Positions 13,694 to 44,246 of a DNA stretch of 51,191 nucleotides are shown here, in pieces. The notes under the pieces are model-generated. The model saw only the letters and a program-made list of their open reading frames with translations. It searched no databases and had not been told where the DNA came from. This stretch comes from Bacteroides sp. (lineage in GTDB: Bacteria > Bacteroidota > Bacteroidia > Bacteroidales > SM23-62), in contig DRHS01000257.1 in assembly GCA_011053095.1 (NCBI GenBank), forward strand, positions 1-51,191, in the 5' to 3' direction. Position 1 is the first letter of the stretch, and each line of letters opens with the position of its first letter. A program made the translations under genes and the position numbers.

Positions 13694-14428
13694 TCAGGGA
13701 TCTAAAGCTAAACTCATTTCTTTGATGATAGTTTCCTTTCCTGTATAGGTAAGTGTACCGGTGTAATTATCTTCAAACGAAAAGCCCTTAAACTGCCAGA
13801 CAGCATCATCAAATCCGCTGTTTGCAGATTGCAGCCTTATGGTTCCGTTGTCAATTGAAAAATCAAGATTTTCCTGCGTGAGGCGCAGTCCTTCTCCGAT
13901 GGCCTTTAGATAAGACTCCTTGAAGGTCCAGAACTGGAAAAATCTTTTGAGTTTACTATCCGGATCTTTCTGTAAATATTTTCTTTCCCTGGGAGTTAAA
14001 TTTTTCTCAATAAGCAGGTCGAGATCAGGGAGTTCCCGTATTCTTTCGATATCAATTCCCACTTCAGCATCTCTTGAAAAGGCATACGCACAGAGATTAT
14101 GCGAATTGGAAATATTAAAAAAAAGAGAGCCATCATTGAGCAGGTAGGGTTTGCCTTTTTTGTGGGCTCCCAATTTAATATCCGGGGGACTTATTTCCAG
14201 ATAATGCGATAACAGCATCTTTAGAACAGCCTGGGTAACAATATAATTATGCTGTAAGAGTTCAAATTTGTAATAAGATGCTTTCTCTATTTCCCCGGGT
14301 GATAAAACAGTCGTTATACGCTCAATCTGGTTTTTTGATGCATCAAGTGAGATTGTCCACAGATGGATTTCTCCCTTCACAAGACGAGGGAAAGGTTCTG
14401 TTTCAGCTTGATTCAGGATATAAAACAT
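13694..14428 (-). CDS. 4'-phosphopantetheinyl transferase, Sfp type
   Basis: Enzyme of 244 residues that transfers 4'-phosphopantetheine from CoA to a carrier-protein serine. Sfp-family motifs are present: KGKPYL (about 91-96), FFNISNSHN (103-111), VGIDIERI with Asp126/Glu128 for Mg, and FWTFKESYLKAIGEGL with Trp167, Lys170, Glu171 and Lys175. Its start overlaps the PKS stop codon (TGATG), so translation is coupled. The length matches Sfp rather than the ~120-residue AcpS. The natural target is very probably the ACP of the adjacent PKS (Ser2490). Confidence 0.95.
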   Translation of the reverse strand: MFYILNQAETEPFPRLVKGEIHLWTISLDASKNQIERITTVLSPGEIEKASYYKFELLQHNYIVTQAVLKMLLSHYLEISPPDIKLGAHKKGKPYLLNDGSLFFNISNSHNLCAYAFSRDAEVGIDIERIRELPDLDLLIEKNLTPRERKYLQKDPDSKLKRFFQFWTFKESYLKAIGEGLRLTQENLDFSIDNGTIRLQSANSGFDDAVWQFKGFSFEDNYTGTLTYTGKETIIKEMSLALDP

Positions 14429-17400
14429 CAGACAATAACAAACTCGCTTAATTCTTCAGTGAGTATTTCCAGCAGCTCTTCTTTGTTATCCCGGCAGAAA
14501 AGGTGACTTCCATTCACCATTCTAAAATTGAATTCGCCCGATGTGTGTTTCTTCCAGGCTTTGATCTGTCCCCCCTGGAAAACTGTATCATCTTTTCCCG
14601 CTAAGGCGGTAAGGGGACAACTCATGGGTTCATCTTCATAGTATTTGTATCGTTTGCCCAGAAGTATATCGGCACGAAGAGCAGGTAGCATCTCTTCAAT
14701 TAGTTCCTTATTCTGAAGTACCGACTCAGAAATTTCCAGCGATCTAAGGTGATTGACAATATTGGGAATATTTTTATCCATATAAACCTCATCATCCTGA
14801 ATGGCATCAAGGAATTTAAAAGGACTCACCATGTGGGGTGAGCGCCATCCGCCAACGATAAATTTAACAGGTTGAATGCCTTTTTCCCGTCTCAGATACC
14901 TTGTCAGTTCGAGTCCGATGCCCGCCCCTGCACTATGACAATAAAATGCTATGGGACAGTTTAGCAGTGGATCGATAACATCTGAGATTGCTTTAACAAG
15001 GTCGAGATAGTTGTCAATTGGATCTTCCCCCATACGCTCCTCACGTCCGGGATATTGAATGGCACAAACCTCAATTCCATCCTGCAGGGACTCCTGCCAG
15101 GAGCTGTACACAGAGGCACCACCGGCAAAATAGGGAAGACAGAAGAGTCGCATTCTCGGGTTATCAATCCTGTTGGTCCGAAGCACCCATTTATCCAATT
15201 CCGTTTTCTCCTCTCCATGGCCATCCCCTCCGCTCAACTGACCATTCAACTGGTCCAGGACCTGTTCAGCAAGTTCTTCAAGAGTCGGACCCTTCATGAT
15301 TTGCATCATGGAGTAATCAACAGATAAACTGCTCTGTATCCAATTCCTGATCTGGTTAGCCATAAGAGAATCCAGTCCATATTTGGTGACCGGTTCGTTA
15401 GTATCTATCTTATCTGCTGTAGACCCAAGCACCCTGGCAAATGTATCCAGCAGGTGGGTTAATAATACATCAAATTTTTCTTCTTTGTCTAATTCCTTAA
15501 GAGCGGTCTTCAATCCACCATCTCCTGCACCTGCAGCGGATCCTGCTGATAATTCCTTCTCTTTGATGAGATGGCCGAAACGGCTTGTTTCGCATGAGTG
15601 GGGATAAAAATTACCAACCATTTCCCAGTCAGAATCAGTAGCTACCCGCTGAACCGGGTTCGTCAACAGCATCTGTTCCAGGATATCGGTCGATTGTTTA
15701 AGGGTGAAGGTTTTCCAGCCCTGCTTGTACAGTAATCCACCTACATTCCCCTGTCTCGCCACAAATCCCACATCTCCAAGTACCCCCCAGTTGATTGTAC
15801 TGGCAGTCATGCCCTGTGATCTCCTGTACTGGGCGAAGTTTTCAAGGAAACTGTTTCCTGCAACATAACTTACCTGTCCAGGATTACCATATATTGATGA
15901 TATGGAAGAATACAATACAAAATGATCCATGTCCATATCCAGAGTAGCTTCATGCAGCAGCCAGCATCCAATACCCTTTGGTTTAAATACCTTAAGATAG
16001 CGTTCGTGATCAATCTCAGGGATGCCGCCATCATCAAGCACCATAGCCGCATGCTGGATTCCTTTAAGAGGAGGCATCTTTGACCTAACCTCCTGCATTA
16101 TCCGGTTAACATCTTCCCGTACCGAAACATCCCCTTTGGCGATCATCACATTTACGCCCCGTTCACGCATTTTGTCAACAAGCAATTTTTCATCATCTGT
16201 CTTGGGACCGGTTCTACTCATCAGGACAAGGTTTTTTGCCCCTTTTGTAGTCATCCAGTCGGCAACGTAGAGTCCAAATCCGGAACAACCCCCGGTTATT
16301 AGATAAGAAGCATTATCCACAAACTGAATTTCCTTTGGTGGAGCAACCTGGACTTCACCTTCCATGCTTATTATGATTTTACCAATATGCCTGGCAGCGG
16401 CCATAAACTGGAAAGCATCTTTGATTTCCGAGATTGGGAACATATGCGTAGGATGCGCCGGAAATTTATTCTCTACAAAGAAATCTATGGATTCCTGAAA
16501 CAATTCCCCGCTGAATTCTTCTTTTTGCTTGAAGAGCCTGTCTATATCAACTCCAAAATAGGAAAGGTTGTTACCAAAGGGTTGGAGTCCCAGCTTACTG
16601 TTGCGGTAAATATCCGTTTTGCCAATCTCGACAAACCGACCGTAAGGAGCTAAACACCTGATACTTTTAAAGATGGCTTCACCAGAGAGTGAATTAAGAA
16701 CAATATCCACACCCTCCCCATTGGTAAGTTCCATCAACTGGTCGGCAAATTCAAGCGTTCTTGAATTCATTATATTTTCAGGCCTGACACCAAGGCTTTC
16801 GATGTAGGCTTTCTTTTCATTGTTTCCGACCGTGGCATAGATCTTTGCACCTACAGCATTGGCAATATGTATGGCGGCAATACCTACGCCTCCTGCAGCT
16901 GCATGAATAAGAATCTTTTCCCCTTTGCGGATACGGCAAAGATGCACCAGGGAATAATATGCAGTTGTGTAAACAACTGGCAGTGTGGCCGCTTCATAAA
17001 AGCTGATGCCTGCCGGTTTCTGTACAACATGAAAGGCTTTTGGATAGGCATATCCGCTGATACAACGTGGTGCAGTAGCCATGACCTCATCGCCGACCTT
17101 AACATTCTTTACTTCCTCTCCGATCGCAGTTACGATACCGGCACATTCAAGTCCCATAGTCCTCCCGAACAATCCACCCATTATGGCATCATCGGTCAGG
17201 AGTCCCATAGAAAGCATGATATCACGGAAGTTCAGCGCTGATGTTTTGACCTGCACCTCAACTTCATCTTCGGCTGGTTCCTTGCGGGATGTTTCCCTTA
17301 TAACCAGGTTGTCAAGGACACCATACTCATCTATACTTAAGGTGTGGGCCGAGCCCTCTGCAGGGAATGTCCGCTCTGCAGAATGTGCAATACTATCAGT

Positions 17401-20400
17401 GGAAATCCTTTCCAGCCTGTTAATAAATCGTTTTCTTCCCCTGAAGGCGATCTCATCTTCCTTATCTCCTGCAAGTATTTCTTCGATGAATGCATCTATC
17501 TCTTCTGGGTGAACCGGATTGCTGAAATCAACCATGGTGGAATTGAAAATGGGAAATTCATTTACAATCACCCTGTTTACACCCCTTAGTCCTGCCTGGG
17601 AAAGCTCAACGGTTTCTGGATTTCCTCCAACGGATTGTGCACCGGAGGTAGCCATCCAGATTTCAGGTTTCTTCTCGTAGTTGGTGGAGTTCAGTTTTTT
17701 CATCACGTTCATCATGGTACGAGATGAATCGTCTTCTGCCTGAAGGATGGTCTCTGTTGTAAGTTGATCATTGGGAACAGAATCGAGTCCCCATAAATAA
17801 ATAATCCCCTCAAAACGACCCTTGCCGGCAAGCATGTCTATAAGTTTATCTGTGTCTTCCTGGTTTGCCGGATCGATTTCAAACTCCGTCTCACTGATCT
17901 GCTTGTATTTTTCAGCACGATTAATTTTGTAAGATTGCTTCTCGATGGCGGAAAGCCTTGAATCTATGAGATCTGCAACTCCCTTGCCATCAGCAAATAC
18001 GAGCCAGTCCCCTACACCAAGTTTCGCTGATTCCTCTATGGCCTTATTGGTCAGATCAAGCCTGGTATTTCGTGCAAGGATCACACTCTGGCAGGAAAAA
18101 TCATTTTTCTCAAAATCACTGTAAACCGCGATATCCGAAAATCCTTCTCTTTCCAGGACTTCTTTCCATTTCGATGGAGCCATGGTGGCATGCTCAGGGC
18201 GTATATCGGTATCCTCAAATAACCACCAGCCTTCGGTCATACCGAAGATAAAGTCCAGGTATACCGGTGAATTGGTCACTTCCAGCATGAGTAGTATTCC
18301 TTCCGAGGCAAGCAATTGCTTAATATTTCCGAAAGTAGTTTTCAGGTTCCGGGTAGCATGTATCACATCGGAGGCAATGACAAGGTCAAATGAATTTATA
18401 TCAAATCCCTGCTCTGCCGGTTCCTTCTCAATATCCAGTAATTTATACTGTACGAAGGGATACCTGGCGAATCGCTGCTGTGCCTTAAGCATAAACATAT
18501 GAGAGAGATCCGTGTAGTAGTATTCGGTCTTTCCGGCTGGCAGCAGGGGCAGGATTGCCTGGGTCATACCACCTGTTCCTGCACCGATTTCAAGGATTCT
18601 CAGGGTTTGATCATCAGGGATATTATTCAGTAATTCAGTTACCGCGGATCCGGCGAGATCGTTGTATTTCTTAAAGGCAAATCCTTCAACATAGTACTTT
18701 ACGATCAGATCCCACTGATCCTCAGGGAATATCAGTTGAATCGGATCAACCGTTCCTGTCAGAACACCGGCTATCTCCGGTCCACACCGGGCCAGGAGGG
18801 TTGTCTCATGTTGAAACTGGGGATATTCCGAATTGATTTCATGAAGCCATGCCGAGAGATCCCTGAAATCGGGTGTTTTGATAACCCTGAAATCATCCCC
18901 TTCACCCTCCACTATTCCTGCATTTCCAAGCAACTTGAAAATATGGTAAAACAGGCGGTGGTGATCGCTTATCACACTAAATTCTTTAATCAGTTGTGGA
19001 ACATTGATCTTTGTTCCCGTTTCGAATGACAATCCCAGCTCTTTCAGTGAGTTGCAGATGTATCCTATAGTCAGCAGGTACTGCCGTGGCTCATAATTCT
19101 TGTAGTAATCAGACTGTTCCGGCAGGGCATGTATCTGCTTGATGGTCTCATCAACCTTAGGCCTTATTGAGTTTGGAGAAGGAAGGTAATTTCCGGGATT
19201 TCGGACAAGTTCCTGGTCTGCCCTGGACTTCATATTCCAGTTATACTCATAAAACCATTTCTCCTGTTCAGCGGCGTTCTCGCCCCTGGAACCCTTCAGG
19301 TATTGGGAGCGAAAGCCCTGAAATTCGGCAAGGATTTCCCCTTCTTCATTGAAAATCCATAATTCTCCAAGTGCGTATTCATCCGTCCATTCTCTAAGAC
19401 TGCCATAAACAAAGAGTTTAAAGGAATTGGGCTTTTTGTGGAATTTAATCCGGTCAATGTGAACCGGGATGTAGACACCCATTTTTTTGCTCAGGTCCTC
19501 CCGGGTATTAAATATTCCAAAGACAGTCTGGAAACAGCTGTCCAGTACCCCGGGATGCAGATTAAAATGAAAGAACTCTGAGCGTATGCTTTCATGTACT
19601 TCGATCTCACTTAAGGATTCCCAGTTTGTTTCATGCCTCCATAAATTTTTAATCGCTCTGAATGTTGGTCCCAGGTACAGTTCGCTTTCAAGGAGTTCCT
19701 CGTGCATGGCCTTGACCGGAACAGGTATGGTGACCCGTTCGCGGATGGCTGGCAGATCTACTGGTATGGATTTAAATGAATCCCTGATATGGTTCATTTT
19801 ACCATTGGAACACATGGTCCAGGAAGCATTATCACCTCTGGGCCTGGAGTATATGAAATAATCTCCCCCATCATGGGAAATGTCCATTTGAATATGGATG
19901 GGTTCACCTGAATCGGGAAGGAAAAGTGCGGATTCAAAGTTCAGGTCCTCCAAAAATTCAAATTTCTCACCAAATGATGCCAGAGCAGCCGAGATGGACA
20001 GTTCTACGTGTCCGGCTCCGGGATAGACAATCGGTCCCTGTACTTTATGGTCATCAATATAGGGATAGGTTCTTTTATCCAGCTTGATGTCCCATATTAT
20101 ATTGTGACTTTCCCTGGCTGAAGTGGTTTTTCGTTCCAGATGAGGATGAATAAAGCTGCCAAGGCGTGTTTTTCTTCCTTCTTCAGTCTCCAGCCAGTGC
20201 CTTTCTTTTTGCCATGGGTAGGTAGGCAGGCGGACAAACTGGTTCTCTCCAAAATAGCCTTGCCAATGAACCTTGCATCCCCAGGTGTGAAGCGTCCCCA
20301 GAGAAGAAAGGAATGTGCGTTTTTCTTCATCCTGTCTTCGGATTGAGGGGACTACAACACCATTTTTCTGCCTGGCATCCAACAGGTCATTAATTCCCAT

Positions 20401-22836
20401 GGCATGAATGGGATGAGGGCCTAATTCAACAAATGTGTTGAAGCCGTCTTTAATTAACTCTTCAATGGCCGGGGCAAAACTAACCGTTTCCCTCACATTT
20501 CGGTACCAGTATTTGTTATCCAGTTTCCTGCCATCCATAACCATTCCTGTTACGGTGGAATAAAACGGGATTTTTGTAGGAGAAGGCTTCAGGGAGTCCA
20601 GGGCACCAAGCAACTCTTCCTTCAGGGGTTCCATGTGATGACAGTGGAAAGGTACGTTGATCTGAAGCAACCTGTTGAAAACATCCTGTTTTTCCAGCTC
20701 CTCTGAAATTTGCTCAATGACATCTGTATCTCCTGCCAGGGTTACCATTGCCGGCCCGTTAACAGCTGCCAGGGAAACCTTGTCCTCTCTTCCCTGAACC
20801 AGTCGGGTCGCTTCTTCTGTTGTCAATCCTGCGGCCAGCATTTTTCCTTTATCTGTGGCCTTAAACTGCACCCTGCTTCTGTGGAATATCAGCAAAACAG
20901 CCTGCTCTAAAGTCAGGGCACCTGAGGCATAGGCAGCAGGAACCTCCCCGATACTATGTCCGACGACAGCTGAGGGACTTATTCCCAATGCTTTCCACAT
21001 TTCAAAAAGAGCAATCTGAATGGCAAAAATGCATGGTTGAGCAATATTTGTCTCAGAGATCCTGGATGATTCCTCTTCTTTCAAAAGTTCTTCAAGTAGT
21101 GACCAGTCGGCGTGTTTGCTGAGAAGCTTATCCAGTGAATGGATGGTTTTCTTGAAGATCGGTTCGTTCTCCAATAACTGCCTTCCCATGGCCCACCATT
21201 GCGGTCCCTGCCCTGAGAAAACAAAAACGATCTTATCTCTTGTTTCATTAGCCCTTCCTTCAGAGATTTCACTTAAGTTTTCCCCATCCAGGTACTTTTG
21301 CAGATTATCTGCCATTTCCTGTTTTGATCCTGCTACTACGGACAGGCGAATATAGTGATGTGGTCTTCGTACGGCTGATGAATAACAGATAGCGTTTAAA
21401 TCAGCTTTGTTATTCTTATCCTTGAAAAAATCAATATAGGATTCCGTCAGATCTTTCAGAGCCTCAGAATCCCTTGCTGAAATCGTACAGATCTGAAGTT
21501 TTTCATTACCTGGTTTCAGGGTCTTCTTTTCCTCTGGCAATCCTTCAAGCACCACATGTACATTGGAGCCTCCAAAACCAAAATTATTGACTCCTCCATA
21601 GACACTGCCATTTTTCTCGTTTTTCCATTTCATTGGTTCAACCGGCACCTCAAGATTCAATTCATCAAAAGAAATATTTGGATTCGGTTTTTTGAAATGA
21701 ATATTCGGAGGAATTATCCTGTTATTCATAGAAAGTGCCAGCTTAATAATACCTGCAATGCCAGATGCAGGTTCCAGGTGACCAATGTTTGTTTTTACAG
21801 AACCTATATAAAATTTATCCTCACGGTTATTTCCTATTACTTTCCCTATAGAATTGGCCTCAATCGGGTCTCCCACAAAGGTTCCTGTTCCATGAGCCTC
21901 AATGTATTTGACCATTTGGGTTTCGACACCGGCATCTTTATAGGCCATCCTGATCATTTCCTGCTGGGCGATGGGGTTGGGAACTGATATTCCGTTGGTG
22001 GTTCCGTCCTGGTTAATCCCTGATCCCCTTATCACAGCATAGATAATGTCATTATCTTTTTGTGCACGGGAAAGTGGCTTGATGATTATCACACCGGCTC
22101 CCTCACTTCTTATATAACCGTTTGCACGGGAATCAAATGCATAACATTTACCGTCGGGTGACAGAAATCCTCCCTTGGAAAATCCCATCTGTGGTTCTGG
22201 CTTCAGAATGGCATTGACACCACCTGCAAATGAAAGATCAGCGTCCTTTTCCCAGATACTCCGGCATGCCATGTGAACTGCATTCAGGGAGGAGGAACAT
22301 GCCGTATCAAGGGCAAAACTTGGTCCCTTTAAATTATAGAAATAGGATATTCTGTTGGCTGTAATACAGAGAGCGGAGCCCAGGTTCGTATGTGCTCCGA
22401 TATTCACCTTCTCCACAGGGGTATTTTGAAGGTCGCCATAATCGTGAGATGATATACCAATAAATACAGATGTCCGGCTGCCATCCAGCTCATCGATGGT
22501 TAGTCCCCCATTCTCCACAGCCTCATATGAAAGTTCAAGAAGCATTCTCTGCTGAGGATCCATCCGTTGTGCTTCGAGAGGAGAAATTCCAAAGAAGGCT
22601 GCATCAAATTTATCGATGTCTTTTATGAATCCCCCCCTGTTGACACTAATTTTACCAGCTTGCTTAAAATCCGGAGCAAATAACGCATTTGAATCCCAGC
22701 GATCGACAGGTATGTCTGAAAGGGCATCGCTCTTTTCAACTATTAATTTCCAAAATTCTTCCGGATTGGTAACATCACCGGGAAATCTGCATCCAATGCC
22801 TACTATTGCTAAAGGCTCTCTCTTATTCCTATCCAT
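14428..22836 (-). CDS. Iterative highly reducing type I polyketide synthase, KS-AT-DH-MT-ER-KR-ACP-TE
   Basis: One reducing PKS module of 2802 residues. KS 1-430: Cys180 in DTACSSS, His315 in EAHGTGT, His353 in NIGHLEP. AT 535-840: Ser628 in GHSIGE and VPFH at 728-731, so Phe-His as in malonyl-specific ATs. DH 895-1180: His930 with Gly934/Pro939 (HxxxGxxxxP) and Asp1099 in HPGVLDS. C-methyltransferase 1240-1590: EIGAGTGG at 1416-1423. Structural KR-like region 1600-1810. ER 1835-2155: HAAAGGVG at 1978-1985. KR 2175-2400: GGCSGFG, Tyr2324, Asn2328 and an LDD motif at 2267-2269, which predicts a B-type hydroxyl. ACP: Ser2490 in GLDSL. TE 2560-2802, type II-like: Ser2635 in CHSAGA, acid near Asp2749, His2778. 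All active-site residues are present, so a fully reduced and possibly alpha-methylated chain released by hydrolysis is expected. The order resembles fungal HR-PKSs plus a TE. Confidence 0.95.
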   Translation of the reverse strand: MDRNKREPLAIVGIGCRFPGDVTNPEEFWKLIVEKSDALSDIPVDRWDSNALFAPDFKQAGKISVNRGGFIKDIDKFDAAFFGISPLEAQRMDPQQRMLLELSYEAVENGGLTIDELDGSRTSVFIGISSHDYGDLQNTPVEKVNIGAHTNLGSALCITANRISYFYNLKGPSFALDTACSSSLNAVHMACRSIWEKDADLSFAGGVNAILKPEPQMGFSKGGFLSPDGKCYAFDSRANGYIRSEGAGVIIIKPLSRAQKDNDIIYAVIRGSGINQDGTTNGISVPNPIAQQEMIRMAYKDAGVETQMVKYIEAHGTGTFVGDPIEANSIGKVIGNNREDKFYIGSVKTNIGHLEPASGIAGIIKLALSMNNRIIPPNIHFKKPNPNISFDELNLEVPVEPMKWKNEKNGSVYGGVNNFGFGGSNVHVVLEGLPEEKKTLKPGNEKLQICTISARDSEALKDLTESYIDFFKDKNNKADLNAICYSSAVRRPHHYIRLSVVAGSKQEMADNLQKYLDGENLSEISEGRANETRDKIVFVFSGQGPQWWAMGRQLLENEPIFKKTIHSLDKLLSKHADWSLLEELLKEEESSRISETNIAQPCIFAIQIALFEMWKALGISPSAVVGHSIGEVPAAYASGALTLEQAVLLIFHRSRVQFKATDKGKMLAAGLTTEEATRLVQGREDKVSLAAVNGPAMVTLAGDTDVIEQISEELEKQDVFNRLLQINVPFHCHHMEPLKEELLGALDSLKPSPTKIPFYSTVTGMVMDGRKLDNKYWYRNVRETVSFAPAIEELIKDGFNTFVELGPHPIHAMGINDLLDARQKNGVVVPSIRRQDEEKRTFLSSLGTLHTWGCKVHWQGYFGENQFVRLPTYPWQKERHWLETEEGRKTRLGSFIHPHLERKTTSARESHNIIWDIKLDKRTYPYIDDHKVQGPIVYPGAGHVELSISAALASFGEKFEFLEDLNFESALFLPDSGEPIHIQMDISHDGGDYFIYSRPRGDNASWTMCSNGKMNHIRDSFKSIPVDLPAIRERVTIPVPVKAMHEELLESELYLGPTFRAIKNLWRHETNWESLSEIEVHESIRSEFFHFNLHPGVLDSCFQTVFGIFNTREDLSKKMGVYIPVHIDRIKFHKKPNSFKLFVYGSLREWTDEYALGELWIFNEEGEILAEFQGFRSQYLKGSRGENAAEQEKWFYEYNWNMKSRADQELVRNPGNYLPSPNSIRPKVDETIKQIHALPEQSDYYKNYEPRQYLLTIGYICNSLKELGLSFETGTKINVPQLIKEFSVISDHHRLFYHIFKLLGNAGIVEGEGDDFRVIKTPDFRDLSAWLHEINSEYPQFQHETTLLARCGPEIAGVLTGTVDPIQLIFPEDQWDLIVKYYVEGFAFKKYNDLAGSAVTELLNNIPDDQTLRILEIGAGTGGMTQAILPLLPAGKTEYYYTDLSHMFMLKAQQRFARYPFVQYKLLDIEKEPAEQGFDINSFDLVIASDVIHATRNLKTTFGNIKQLLASEGILLMLEVTNSPVYLDFIFGMTEGWWLFEDTDIRPEHATMAPSKWKEVLEREGFSDIAVYSDFEKNDFSCQSVILARNTRLDLTNKAIEESAKLGVGDWLVFADGKGVADLIDSRLSAIEKQSYKINRAEKYKQISETEFEIDPANQEDTDKLIDMLAGKGRFEGIIYLWGLDSVPNDQLTTETILQAEDDSSRTMMNVMKKLNSTNYEKKPEIWMATSGAQSVGGNPETVELSQAGLRGVNRVIVNEFPIFNSTMVDFSNPVHPEEIDAFIEEILAGDKEDEIAFRGRKRFINRLERISTDSIAHSAERTFPAEGSAHTLSIDEYGVLDNLVIRETSRKEPAEDEVEVQVKTSALNFRDIMLSMGLLTDDAIMGGLFGRTMGLECAGIVTAIGEEVKNVKVGDEVMATAPRCISGYAYPKAFHVVQKPAGISFYEAATLPVVYTTAYYSLVHLCRIRKGEKILIHAAAGGVGIAAIHIANAVGAKIYATVGNNEKKAYIESLGVRPENIMNSRTLEFADQLMELTNGEGVDIVLNSLSGEAIFKSIRCLAPYGRFVEIGKTDIYRNSKLGLQPFGNNLSYFGVDIDRLFKQKEEFSGELFQESIDFFVENKFPAHPTHMFPISEIKDAFQFMAAARHIGKIIISMEGEVQVAPPKEIQFVDNASYLITGGCSGFGLYVADWMTTKGAKNLVLMSRTGPKTDDEKLLVDKMRERGVNVMIAKGDVSVREDVNRIMQEVRSKMPPLKGIQHAAMVLDDGGIPEIDHERYLKVFKPKGIGCWLLHEATLDMDMDHFVLYSSISSIYGNPGQVSYVAGNSFLENFAQYRRSQGMTASTINWGVLGDVGFVARQGNVGGLLYKQGWKTFTLKQSTDILEQMLLTNPVQRVATDSDWEMVGNFYPHSCETSRFGHLIKEKELSAGSAAGAGDGGLKTALKELDKEEKFDVLLTHLLDTFARVLGSTADKIDTNEPVTKYGLDSLMANQIRNWIQSSLSVDYSMMQIMKGPTLEELAEQVLDQLNGQLSGGDGHGEEKTELDKWVLRTNRIDNPRMRLFCLPYFAGGASVYSSWQESLQDGIEVCAIQYPGREERMGEDPIDNYLDLVKAISDVIDPLLNCPIAFYCHSAGAGIGLELTRYLRREKGIQPVKFIVGGWRSPHMVSPFKFLDAIQDDEVYMDKNIPNIVNHLRSLEISESVLQNKELIEEMLPALRADILLGKRYKYYEDEPMSCPLTALAGKDDTVFQGGQIKAWKKHTSGEFNFRMVNGSHLFCRDNKEELLEILTEELSEFVIV

Positions 22837-40158: not shown

Positions 40159-40189
40159 AAAAAAAAGCGCCCTTCCGAGCGCATTTTTT
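40159..40189. terminator. Bidirectional rho-independent terminator
   Basis: The stem-loop GCGCCCTTCCGAGCGC (40167-40182) is flanked by an A-run on the left and a T-run on the right, so it can end both the OMP transcript (plus) and the tRNA transcript (minus). The stem has 6 pairs, one of them G-T in the minus reading. Confidence 0.75.
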
Positions 40190-40219: not shown

Positions 40220-40327
40220 CTGTAGGGGAAGGATTCGAACCTTCACGGAGTGGTTAGTCTTTGAGATTTTTCCCTTTCTCTCCGCCCCCGAGACAGGAGG
40301 GTGTGTCTGCCGTTTCACCACCCTACA
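40220..40327 (-). tRNA. tRNA with anticodon GUC and a long (40-nt) variable arm
   Basis: The 108-nt sequence folds as a tRNA. Acceptor TGTAGGG pairs with CCCTACA over 7 bp, followed by discriminator G. The D-arm is GTG/CAC with a GG-containing loop; T8 and A14 are in place. The anticodon stem CCCTC/GGGGG (one T-G pair) closes the loop CTGTCTC with U33 and anticodon GTC at 40292-40294. The T-arm GAAGG-TTCGAAT-CCTTC is canonical. The variable region has 40 nt with an outer CGGAG/CTCCG stem. GUC would read Asp codons, yet tRNA-Asp has a short variable loop, and the D-arm looks Leu-like. Identity is therefore unclear. CCA is not encoded. A -7 box lies just upstream and a terminator downstream. 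Confidence 0.8.
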
Positions 40328-40350: not shown

Positions 40351-40358
40351 CAAATATA
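40351..40358 (-). promoter_or_regulatory. Bacteroidota -7 promoter element for the tRNA gene
   Basis: TATATTTG on the minus strand is a perfect TAnnTTTG match, with its 3' end 23 bp before the first tRNA base. It is the same octamer as at the TetR promoter. It suggests that the tRNA gene is expressed. Confidence 0.45.
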
Positions 40359-40467: not shown

Positions 40468-40935
40468 ATGGCGAAAATTTACGATATCGATAAACTGGAC
40501 AGGGAGATACTCGGAATCCTTATGAAAGATGCTAAGGTTCCCTATACGGATATTGCAAAAAGACTTGTTGTATCCGCCGGAACCATACATGTCAGAATGA
40601 AACGACTGGAGCGCCTGGGGATTGTAAAGGGGGCTACCCTGATACTCGATCCTGCACGTATCGGATACGACATGACGGCATTTGTGGGGATATACCTGGT
40701 CAAGGGATCCGCCTATAGCGAGGTCGTCAAGGAGATGGAAGCAATCCCCCAGATCATTGAGGCTTATTTTACAACCGGTGAGTACAGCATCTTCGCAAAA
40801 GTGGTTTGTAAAAACACCGAACACCTCAGGGAGGTAATTAACGACAAGCTGCAACCCATAAACGGTATATCCCGCACAGAAACCATTATTTCCCTTGGAG
40901 AAAGCATCAAAAAGCAGGTGCCTATAGAGCTTTGA
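40468..40935 (+). CDS. Lrp/AsnC-family transcriptional regulator
   Basis: Regulator of 155 residues with an N-terminal helix-turn-helix (about 8-55: LDREILGILMKDAKVPYTDIAKRL and VSAGTIHVRMKRLE) and a C-terminal RAM ligand-binding domain (about 70-150: VGIYLVKGSAYSEVVKEM, AYFTTGEYSIFAKV). The start at 40468 (MAKIYDIDKLD) fits the family length; a TTG at 40438 is further upstream but lies inside a palindrome that may be the operator. No amino-acid metabolism gene lies next to it, so it may be a global or self-controlled regulator. Confidence 0.92.
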   Translation: MAKIYDIDKLDREILGILMKDAKVPYTDIAKRLVVSAGTIHVRMKRLERLGIVKGATLILDPARIGYDMTAFVGIYLVKGSAYSEVVKEMEAIPQIIEAYFTTGEYSIFAKVVCKNTEHLREVINDKLQPINGISRTETIISLGESIKKQVPIEL

Positions 40936-42842: not shown

Positions 42843-44246
42843 ATGAGCGGATTTTTCGGTGTAGTCTCCAAGAAAAGGTGCGTTTCTGATGTATTCTTTG
42901 GAACCGACTACAACTCCCACCTTGGTACAAAACGTGCCGGTATGGTATTTTACAGTACACGTGAAGGATTCCGGAGGAGCATTCACAATATTGAAAGTTC
43001 CTATTTCAGGTCCAAATTTGAAGCGGAATTGCCTGGTTTTCGTGGCAGAATGGGACTCGGGGTAATCTCCGATACCGATCCCCAACCAATCTTGTTTAAT
43101 TCCCATATGGGACGGTTTGCTATCACTACCGTGAGCAGACTGGTTAACATTGACGAGCTTGAAAAGCACTTTCTAGGCAACAAAAATCATTTTACCGAGA
43201 ATTTCGAGGGAAATGTGAATCCCACTGAAGTAGTTGCCAATCTTATCTGTGAGGAAGATGATTTTGTCTCAGGAATAAAAAATGTCTTTCAGAAAGTAAA
43301 AGGTTCCTGTTCAATGATGATTCTCACCCCAAACGGAATTCTTGCAGCACGTGATAAACTCGGACGTACCACCATAATGCTGGGTAAAAAAGACGGGGCC
43401 TATGCAGTTGCATCCGAAACCTCGTCGTTTCCCAACTGTGGGTATGAGATTGAGCATTACCTGGGTCCCGGAGAGATCGTCAAGGTAACTGCCGACGGAT
43501 ATGAGATATTAAAGCCCCAGGAAGAAAAAATGCAGGTCTGCTCATTTCTCTGGGTTTATTACGGATATCCCACCTCCTATTATGAAGGCATTAATGTAGA
43601 TGAAACCAGATATCGCTGTGGAGCCTGTCTTGCCAGAAGAGACAATGTGGATGTTGATTTTGTATCCGGCATACCTGATTCGGGTGTCGGACATGCCTAT
43701 GGTTATGGAAACGAAAAAGGCATCCCGTATAAAAGGCCATATACCAAATATACCCCTACATGGCCAAGAAGCTTCATGCCCCAGAACCAGGAGACCAGAG
43801 ACCTGGTGGCTAAAATGAAACTGATCCCGAACAGGGCAGTTATTGAAGGACAGAAGATGGTGTTGTTAGATGATTCAATTGTTCGGGGCACTCAACTAAG
43901 AGACAATACGGTAGATCTTCGGAATGCCGGTGCAAAGGAGATACATATGCGCATCGCCTGTCCCCCACTCACCTACTCCTGCGACTTTCTGAATTTTTCT
44001 CAGTCCCGTTCCACCCTCGAGCTGGCCAGCCGTAAGGCCATAAAACAGATTGAGGGAGATGAAAAGGACCTGGTGGAATATGCTGATCAGACATCGGATA
44101 AATACAGGGCCATGGTCGAGCAGATTGCAAAAGATCTTGGGATTGATTCACTGATGTACCAGAACCTTGGTGATCTTGTAGAAGCCATTGGATTGCCTAA
44201 GGAAAGGCTTTGCACACACTGCTGGGACGGATCCAGCTATTTTTAA
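42843..44246 (+). CDS. purF: Amidophosphoribosyltransferase (PurF) homologue without the glutaminase cysteine
   Basis: PurF-family protein of 467 residues. The N-terminal Ntn-type glutaminase half starts MSGFFGVVS, so residue 2, normally the catalytic Cys exposed after Met removal, is Ser. The phosphoribosyltransferase half is normal, with VLLDDSIVRGTQLRD at about residues 340-354, PDSGVGHAYGYGNEKGIP and YTPTWPRSFMP. The C-terminus has CTHCWDG. From memory, other Bacteroidota have a PurF homologue starting M-G/S-G-F-F-G, so this may be a lineage-wide form. It might use free ammonia, a separate glutaminase, or another amine donor. Its role in purine synthesis is therefore inferred. No other purine gene is nearby. 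Confidence 0.85.
   Translation: MSGFFGVVSKKRCVSDVFFGTDYNSHLGTKRAGMVFYSTREGFRRSIHNIESSYFRSKFEAELPGFRGRMGLGVISDTDPQPILFNSHMGRFAITTVSRLVNIDELEKHFLGNKNHFTENFEGNVNPTEVVANLICEEDDFVSGIKNVFQKVKGSCSMMILTPNGILAARDKLGRTTIMLGKKDGAYAVASETSSFPNCGYEIEHYLGPGEIVKVTADGYEILKPQEEKMQVCSFLWVYYGYPTSYYEGINVDETRYRCGACLARRDNVDVDFVSGIPDSGVGHAYGYGNEKGIPYKRPYTKYTPTWPRSFMPQNQETRDLVAKMKLIPNRAVIEGQKMVLLDDSIVRGTQLRDNTVDLRNAGAKEIHMRIACPPLTYSCDFLNFSQSRSTLELASRKAIKQIEGDEKDLVEYADQTSDKYRAMVEQIAKDLGIDSLMYQNLGDLVEAIGLPKERLCTHCWDGSSYF

Follow-up and report, generated by a model that had tools for sequence, protein, structure and literature searches.

A class II tRNA-like RNA family of Bacteroidia and their phages: a candidate non-decoding aspartate carrier

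Pseudo-tRNAs with non-translational roles are known from Bacillus cereus and, in the form of tRNA-Gly, from staphylococci. They can be likened, by description only, to the RNA presented here, in that a tRNA shape has been withdrawn from decoding; they have no known relation to it in sequence, identity or partners. Allo-tRNAs were reportedly described by Mukai et al. in 2017. They share with the present RNA a long variable arm, G73 and a frequent GUC anticodon, but have an 8/4 or 9/3 acceptor branch and are serine or alanine acceptors active in translation (PMC7609411), whereas our RNA family has a 7/5 branch, aspartate identity nucleotides and impaired decoding features. By model score, the closest ordinary tRNA is tRNA-Leu(GAG) (about 42-52 bits), which is similar in its body and D-arm (TGGTGAAANTGGCAGACACACC); the RNA differs from it by G73 in place of A73, an acceptor strand of the type UGURRGR, another anticodon loop, and a variable arm of 37-98 nt against about 15.

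In tRNA-dependent asparagine synthesis (Deinococcus, Thermus, Bdellovibrio, Staphylococcus aureus), AspRS loads aspartate onto tRNA-Asn and GatCAB, for which U1-A72 is required, amidates it, the organisms concerned having AsnRS too and, in many cases, GlnRS. The same loading and amidation is proposed here; however, the carrier there is an ordinary tRNA-Asn whose product decodes asparagine codons, whereas here it would be a separate class II RNA with an aspartate anticodon, seemingly unable to decode. In a survey of 547 bacterial genera, 67 had AsnRS, GlnRS and GatCAB, and 18 of these, Bacteroidetes among them, had no asparagine synthetase of any kind; the authors could suggest only tRNA-Asn as the GatCAB substrate, or a vestigial GatCAB in some (PMC4206432). 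Bacteria with these three enzymes are known that make asparagine on tRNA-Asn, a route shown in Bdellovibrio (PMC4206432).

A tRNA-like gene divergent from an AsnC-type regulator

The window (the whole stretch of 51,191 nucleotides that was analysed) carries a class II tRNA-like gene of 108 nt on the minus strand (40327->40220), with its own promoter and terminator (Table 1). Along that strand it reads TGTAGGG TG GTG AAACGGCAGA CAC A CCCTC CTGTCTC GGGGG, the variable region, T GAAGG TTCGAAT CCTTC CCCTACA G. The class II gene with a GUC anticodon and long arm that had been recognised in the original prediction is borne out: the gene has the 7-bp acceptor stem (UGUAGGG/CCCUACA), G73, a Leu-like D-arm and a TTCGAAT T-loop, its variable region measures 39 nt, and position 37 is U. 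Checked against the tRNA model of Rfam (RF00005), the gene matched over its full length above the cut-off of 29 bits, and the predicted expression signals, a -7 box upstream and a hairpin with a T-run downstream, are in place. ARAGORN called zero tRNAs in the window, this gene included. The single-sequence fold was no better than that of shuffled sequences (z -0.21), and the support for the structure is therefore comparative, coming from covariation. Since ordinary tRNA-Asp(GUC) and tRNA-Ser genes are present in the same genome, the GUC of the RNA is redundant for decoding. We also considered the long arm as an intron, and rejected this by eye, as no excision yields a Leu-like tRNA.

Table 1. 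Features of the RNA gene and its divergent neighbour in the window
Feature	Position	Strand	Basis
tRNA-like RNA gene	40220..40327	-	GUC in anticodon loop; Rfam tRNA 37.4 bits; covariance model R1 137.6 bits; conserved in genus and class
Acceptor stem, 5' strand UGUAGGG (7 bp, starts U1-G2)	40321..40327	-	U1-A72 and G2-C71 in 83/83 bacterial and 53/53 phage copies
Anticodon loop CUGUCUC (32-38): G34 U35 C36, U37, C38	40290..40296	-	Position counts over 83 copies
Variable arm, 39 nt: stem A GGAG/CTCC, stem B GG/CC, internal loop GAAAAA/CUAA, apical UCU/AGA	40246..40284	-	Compensatory changes, 66-80 distinct variable arms; helix 4 of the covariation test
T-arm GAAGG-TTCGAAT-CCTTC	40228..40244	-	Paired cells 100% over 80 sequences
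3' acceptor strand CCCUACA and discriminator G73	40220..40227	-	G73 in 83/83
-7 box TATATTTG, Bacteroidota-type promoter	40351..40358	-	Identical position in 4 genus copies; 24-31 nt upstream of gene
Intrinsic terminator, hairpin and T-run	40159..40182	-	Read from sequence, downstream of gene
AsnC-type regulator, divergent from RNA	40468..40935	+	41% identical to E. coli AsnC; best PDB match 2CG4 (AsnC) 122 bits against Lrp 57

Within the genus, the RNA was found at the syntenic place in three of five genomes (91-93% identity), where it is invariant outside the tip of the variable arm, bar one D-loop indel. The apical stem of that arm is UCU-CAA-AGA in the window, and UCC/GGA and UCA/UGG in two sister species. 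Synteny holds as far as the contigs extend, and covers the genes for a sirtuin, an outer-membrane barrel and the divergent AsnC/Lrp-family regulator; the fourth genome has a contig that stops within the regulator gene, which was not found in the fifth. The -7 box and leader are kept across the genus and the terminators are unrelated in sequence, different in each species, which indicates a maintained transcription unit.

The RNA and the regulator of the window are separated by 140 bp, and in E. coli 151 bp lie between asnC and the divergent asnA. The two loci are alike in that an AsnC-type regulator diverges from a gene for asparagine formation, as proposed for the RNA, and unlike in that this gene is asparagine synthetase A in E. 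coli and an RNA in the window. Among the 61 bacterial loci whose neighbourhoods were counted (see below), 37 have the RNA divergent from an Lrp/AsnC-family gene, with a gap of 92-253 bp (one with an intervening small ORF), one more has such a gene between two tandem RNA copies, and 23 have no regulator neighbour within about 5 kb. Ten other neighbour regulators also match AsnC far better than Lrp. In a family test, AsnC was the best family with 150-180 bits, below the NCBI cut-off of 227, with paralogue controls scoring alike; three paralogous regulators likewise score best as AsnC, so that the AsnC match alone neither proves that the neighbour senses asparagine nor sets it apart from other regulators in this respect.

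Distribution in Bacteroidia and in phages

BLAST among relatives gave matches in the genus only, and a covariance model, built from four genus copies, was needed to reach the class level. Against 393 genomes of the order it recovered the genus and otherwise just ordinary tRNA-Leu(GAG), and when 395 genomes sampled from the class were searched, 65 further genomes gave matches, all outside the order of the window (107-170 nt, 58-103 bits). In the 14 other genomes listed, the matches measure 76-84 nt, as ordinary tRNA-Leu does. Sixty loci were fetched and 83 bacterial copies aligned. Tandem pairs are frequent (L188-L190, L193, L197, L200, L201, L203, L205, L208, L221 and L235), commonly joining one copy with a short variable arm to one with a longer or different arm, which suggests two sub-types. 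ARAGORN called none of the 83 copies, and no report of the family was found in the literature searched, of which our coverage was partial.

Over 80 distinct sequences, the stems of the model are 97.7% paired and 14 pairs are changed on both sides, a result reached by none of 500 shuffles; in slid controls, pairing fell to 53-65%. The same sequences gave an acceptor branch of 7/5, and the D-stem has 3 bp. The plan of the variable arm was absent from the model, yet is common to the copies: a stem A of the type GGAG/CTCC, a 2-bp stem B that exists in G-C, C-G and A-U forms, GAYAAA opposite CUAA in an internal loop, and at the apex a stem whose length varies, the whole region spanning 37-98 nt. 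Signals of transcription are equally widespread. TAnnTTTG precedes 51 of the 83 copies, against a mean of 4 after shuffling, a boxA-like GTTCTT, as in rRNA operons, occurs in the leader of 24 (shuffled 1.7; seen for instance at L188, L190, L200, L224 and L236), and 36 have terminator-like sites within 80 nt downstream (shuffled 0-1).

Blastn against plasmid and annotated phage records gave no match, but an exact pattern scan of IMG/VR retrieved 55 contigs, 53 of them with the full-length RNA. The anticodon loop was part of the search pattern; U1-A72, G2-C71 and G73, which were not, are each present in 53/53 copies. A frequent setting is a jumbo-phage tRNA array: many copies are embedded among up to 24 tRNAs, with ordinary tRNA-Asp and tRNA-Asn in their number, and one array adjoins genes for a family B DNA polymerase and a clamp loader.

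The family therefore spans many families of the class Bacteroidia and their phages, and is not lineage-specific as had been supposed. GUC and the long arm are conserved, and the outcome named beforehand as refuting the original prediction, another anticodon or a short arm in relatives, did not come about. That it is a degenerate tRNA pseudogene or an assembly artefact has a vanishingly small probability: ARAGORN does not call the gene and the assembly is a draft metagenome, but conservation already refutes this reading, through a genus-invariant body, stems that covary class-wide, promoters and terminators, and carriage by complete genomes and by phages.

Some particulars of the viral loci (L253-L307) may be recorded. 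They belong to large phages, in which the RNA often sits in near-complete tRNA arrays (L258, L270, L301, L303), that of L258 comprising 24 tRNAs and a tmRNA. Copies at L258, L298, L301 and L305 have an extra D-loop hairpin and an altered internal loop in the variable arm (AAUAG facing CUGAA). The T4-like phage of L301 encodes a DruA-like protein and a weakly Acb1-like protein with a 2'-5' RNA ligase fold near its array (L301:3268-4485 and L301:8319-8885).

Identity nucleotides, decoding features and GatCAB

The strong determinants for AspRS are G73, G34, U35, C36 and C38, with G2-C71 a minor one; U1-A72 permits amidation by GatCAB, and G1-C72 and U20a are antideterminants in tRNA-Asp (PMC9976931). 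Among the 83 bacterial copies of the RNA, U1-A72, G2-C71, G73, U35 and C36 are invariant, G34 is found in 79 and C38 in 81, the triplet being GUC in 79 copies, UUC in two and CUC in two. The D-loop is GGCAGA or GGCAGC in nearly all copies, with no U20a. The tRNA-Asp of the window's genome has both GatCAB antideterminants, G1-C72 and a D-loop GGTTA, and the RNA has neither; the tRNA-Asn of the genus also has U1-A72. The features that the ribosome needs behave differently: 68 of the 83 copies have U33, and position 37 carries a pyrimidine in 75 copies and a purine in eight, against U33 and a purine 37 in 140/140 distinct ordinary tRNAs of the fetched loci. Selection has thus retained what AspRS and GatCAB would recognise, but not what the ribosome requires. 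This loss of decoding features alongside kept identity nucleotides disfavours the recoding or missense tRNA of the original prediction.

The RNA has the AspRS determinants of tRNA-Asp, without its G1-C72, its class I short variable loop, or the constancy of U33 and purine 37; it has the long variable arm of tRNA-Leu and tRNA-Ser, with neither A73 (Leu) nor a Leu or Ser anticodon; and its GUC, 7/5 branch and 3-bp D-stem are not those of tRNA-Sec (UCA, 8/5 and 6 bp). The 7/5 branch also excludes membership of the allo-tRNAs, with which a kinship had been suggested. In sequence, it does have what a carrier for asparagine synthesis would present, U1-A72 (83/83 and 53/53 copies) and no U20a.

The RNA co-occurs with GatCAB, whose presence was scored by GatB. 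Among genomes of the class, GatB was found in all 41 with the RNA and in 27 of the 39 without it (P = 6e-5), a genome being counted among the latter when a strictly filtered model search, which weak copies may escape, gave no match. AsnRS, GlnRS and AsnA were sought with a single artificial query joining E. coli AsnS, GlnS and AsnA, matches being assigned by query range. When GlnRS is accompanied by GatB, 27/28 genomes have the RNA (AsnRS was found as well in nearly all), and when GlnRS occurs without GatB, 0/12 do (P = 2e-9; 7e-5 at the family level); these P values are too small because the genomes are related, although the pattern also holds by family. Thus, in family f159 the sole RNA-negative genome tested is the sole one without GatB, and f135 gives the same contrast. 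Where GlnRS is present, GatCAB is left without its glutamine task, and the window's genome has GlnRS, AsnRS, GatB and the RNA. The one genome with GatB, GlnRS and AsnRS in which no RNA was found (G404) may hold a weak copy that was missed. AsnA was found in just 2/41 genomes with the RNA and 2/39 without it, too few for its loss to be informative.

A candidate aspartate carrier and its rivals

The conserved identity nucleotides, the lost decoding features, the gene neighbourhood, the co-occurrence with GatB and the carriage by phages are direct observations. From them we infer, at about an even chance of being right, a dedicated non-decoding carrier RNA derived from a class II (Leu-like) tRNA, charged by AspRS, amidated by GatCAB and tied to asparagine supply or sensing. 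AspRS would recognise G34, U35, C36, C38 and G73 and attach aspartate; GatCAB would read U1-A72 and the D-loop devoid of U20a, and convert Asp-RNA into Asn-RNA; and the unmaintained U33 and purine 37, together with the bulky arm, would exclude Asn-RNA from decoding, so that asparagine would not be inserted at aspartate codons. The asparagine would then be released, or the loading state read, with the divergent AsnC-type regulator possibly in control, as its counterpart in that position is of asnA in E. coli. With a separate non-decoding carrier, an ordinary discriminating AspRS would suffice for making asparagine on RNA. A more specific version, which we hold more tentatively, is that the sole job of the RNA in Bacteroidia and their jumbo phages is to bring aspartate from AspRS to GatCAB, yielding asparagine under AsnC control in replacement of asparagine synthetase, its loop having been disabled against mistranslation.

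Occurring in 27/28 sampled Bacteroidia with AsnRS, GlnRS and GatB, the RNA provides a concrete and directly testable candidate for the GatCAB substrate. If the carrier reading is true, a tRNA has turned into a metabolic cofactor, selection can part aminoacylation identity from decoding, and phages carry the RNA as a metabolic gene; the family is in any case an RNA class absent from ARAGORN calls. Several points count against this reading: the replacement by U1-A72 of G1-C72, which helps E. coli AspRS, the size of the variable arm (37-98 nt) on a proposed AspRS substrate, the four copies with UUC or CUC, the 23/61 loci without the regulator, and G404 without the RNA.

The U1-A72 of the genus tRNA-Asn also weighs here, as GatCAB could serve tRNA-Asn if AspRS were non-discriminating. 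That it does so, in line with the known bacteria having AsnRS, GlnRS and GatCAB (PMC4206432), and that the RNA travels with it for some other reason, or modulates that pathway, as a decoy or regulator for example, appears improbable to us, since a non-discriminating AspRS needs no second carrier, yet the RNA is in 27/28 such genomes. What stood of the earlier interpretation is the class II gene with its conserved GUC and arm, as opposed to its lineage specificity, recoding role and allo-tRNA kinship, and the regulatory tRNA-like RNA that it named is a live rival. This would be an uncharged, tRNA-shaped partner of the AsnC-type regulator, acting by base pairing (GUCUC, CUAA/GAYAAA loops) or protein binding. 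The divergent regulator in 37/61 loci, the conserved unpaired motifs GAYAAA and CUAA and the independent promoter and terminator would suit it; we nevertheless regard it as unlikely, as variation at positions 33, 34 and 37 breaks any fixed seed, and the invariance of the AspRS and GatCAB identity nucleotides and the association with GatB are left unexplained.

Two further possibilities would have the RNA aminoacylated for other ends. An auxiliary tRNA-Asp reading GAU and GAC under special conditions would account for the aspartate identity nucleotides and for placement in phage arrays of two dozen tRNAs, but is poorly compatible with the absence of U33 from 15/83 copies and of purine 37 from 75/83 (both kept in 140/140 ordinary tRNAs), with U1-A72 in place of G1-C72, and with the ordinary tRNA-Asp(GUC) that host and phages already have; we assign it a low probability. 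SerRS ignores the anticodon, which leaves the near-invariant GUC and C38 unexplained if the RNA is a Leu-like class II tRNA made a SerRS substrate by A73G, and employed, much like an allo-tRNA, either for missense at aspartate codons or to donate serine in a non-ribosomal reaction. The main serine determinants are indeed G73 and a long arm, A73G turns Leu identity to Ser (PMC9976931), and GUC is among the commonest allo-tRNA anticodons (PMC7609411); however, decoding is compromised at positions 33 and 37, the association with GatB is again unexplained, and the window's genome has a single ordinary SerRS, with no duplicate found, all of which makes this origin quite unlikely.

The idea that the RNA replaces a missing tRNA-Leu(GAG) was rejected, as GUC cannot read CUC and the drafts are incomplete. 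Searches of the RNA-bearing genomes G000, G001, G002 and G004, which are incomplete drafts, gave no ordinary tRNA-Leu(GAG), and G003 of the same genus has that tRNA but gave no match to the RNA, a difference that may only reflect such incompleteness. Elsewhere in the window, a PurF-like amidophosphoribosyltransferase homologue (42843-44246, plus strand) scores 207.6 bits, well under the curated cut-off of 350, and a phosphopantetheinyl transferase (13694-14428, minus strand) adjoins a type I polyketide synthase of 2802 aa (14428-22836, minus strand) with KS-AT-DH-MT-ER-KR-ACP-TE domains, a notable gene in a Bacteroidales genome.
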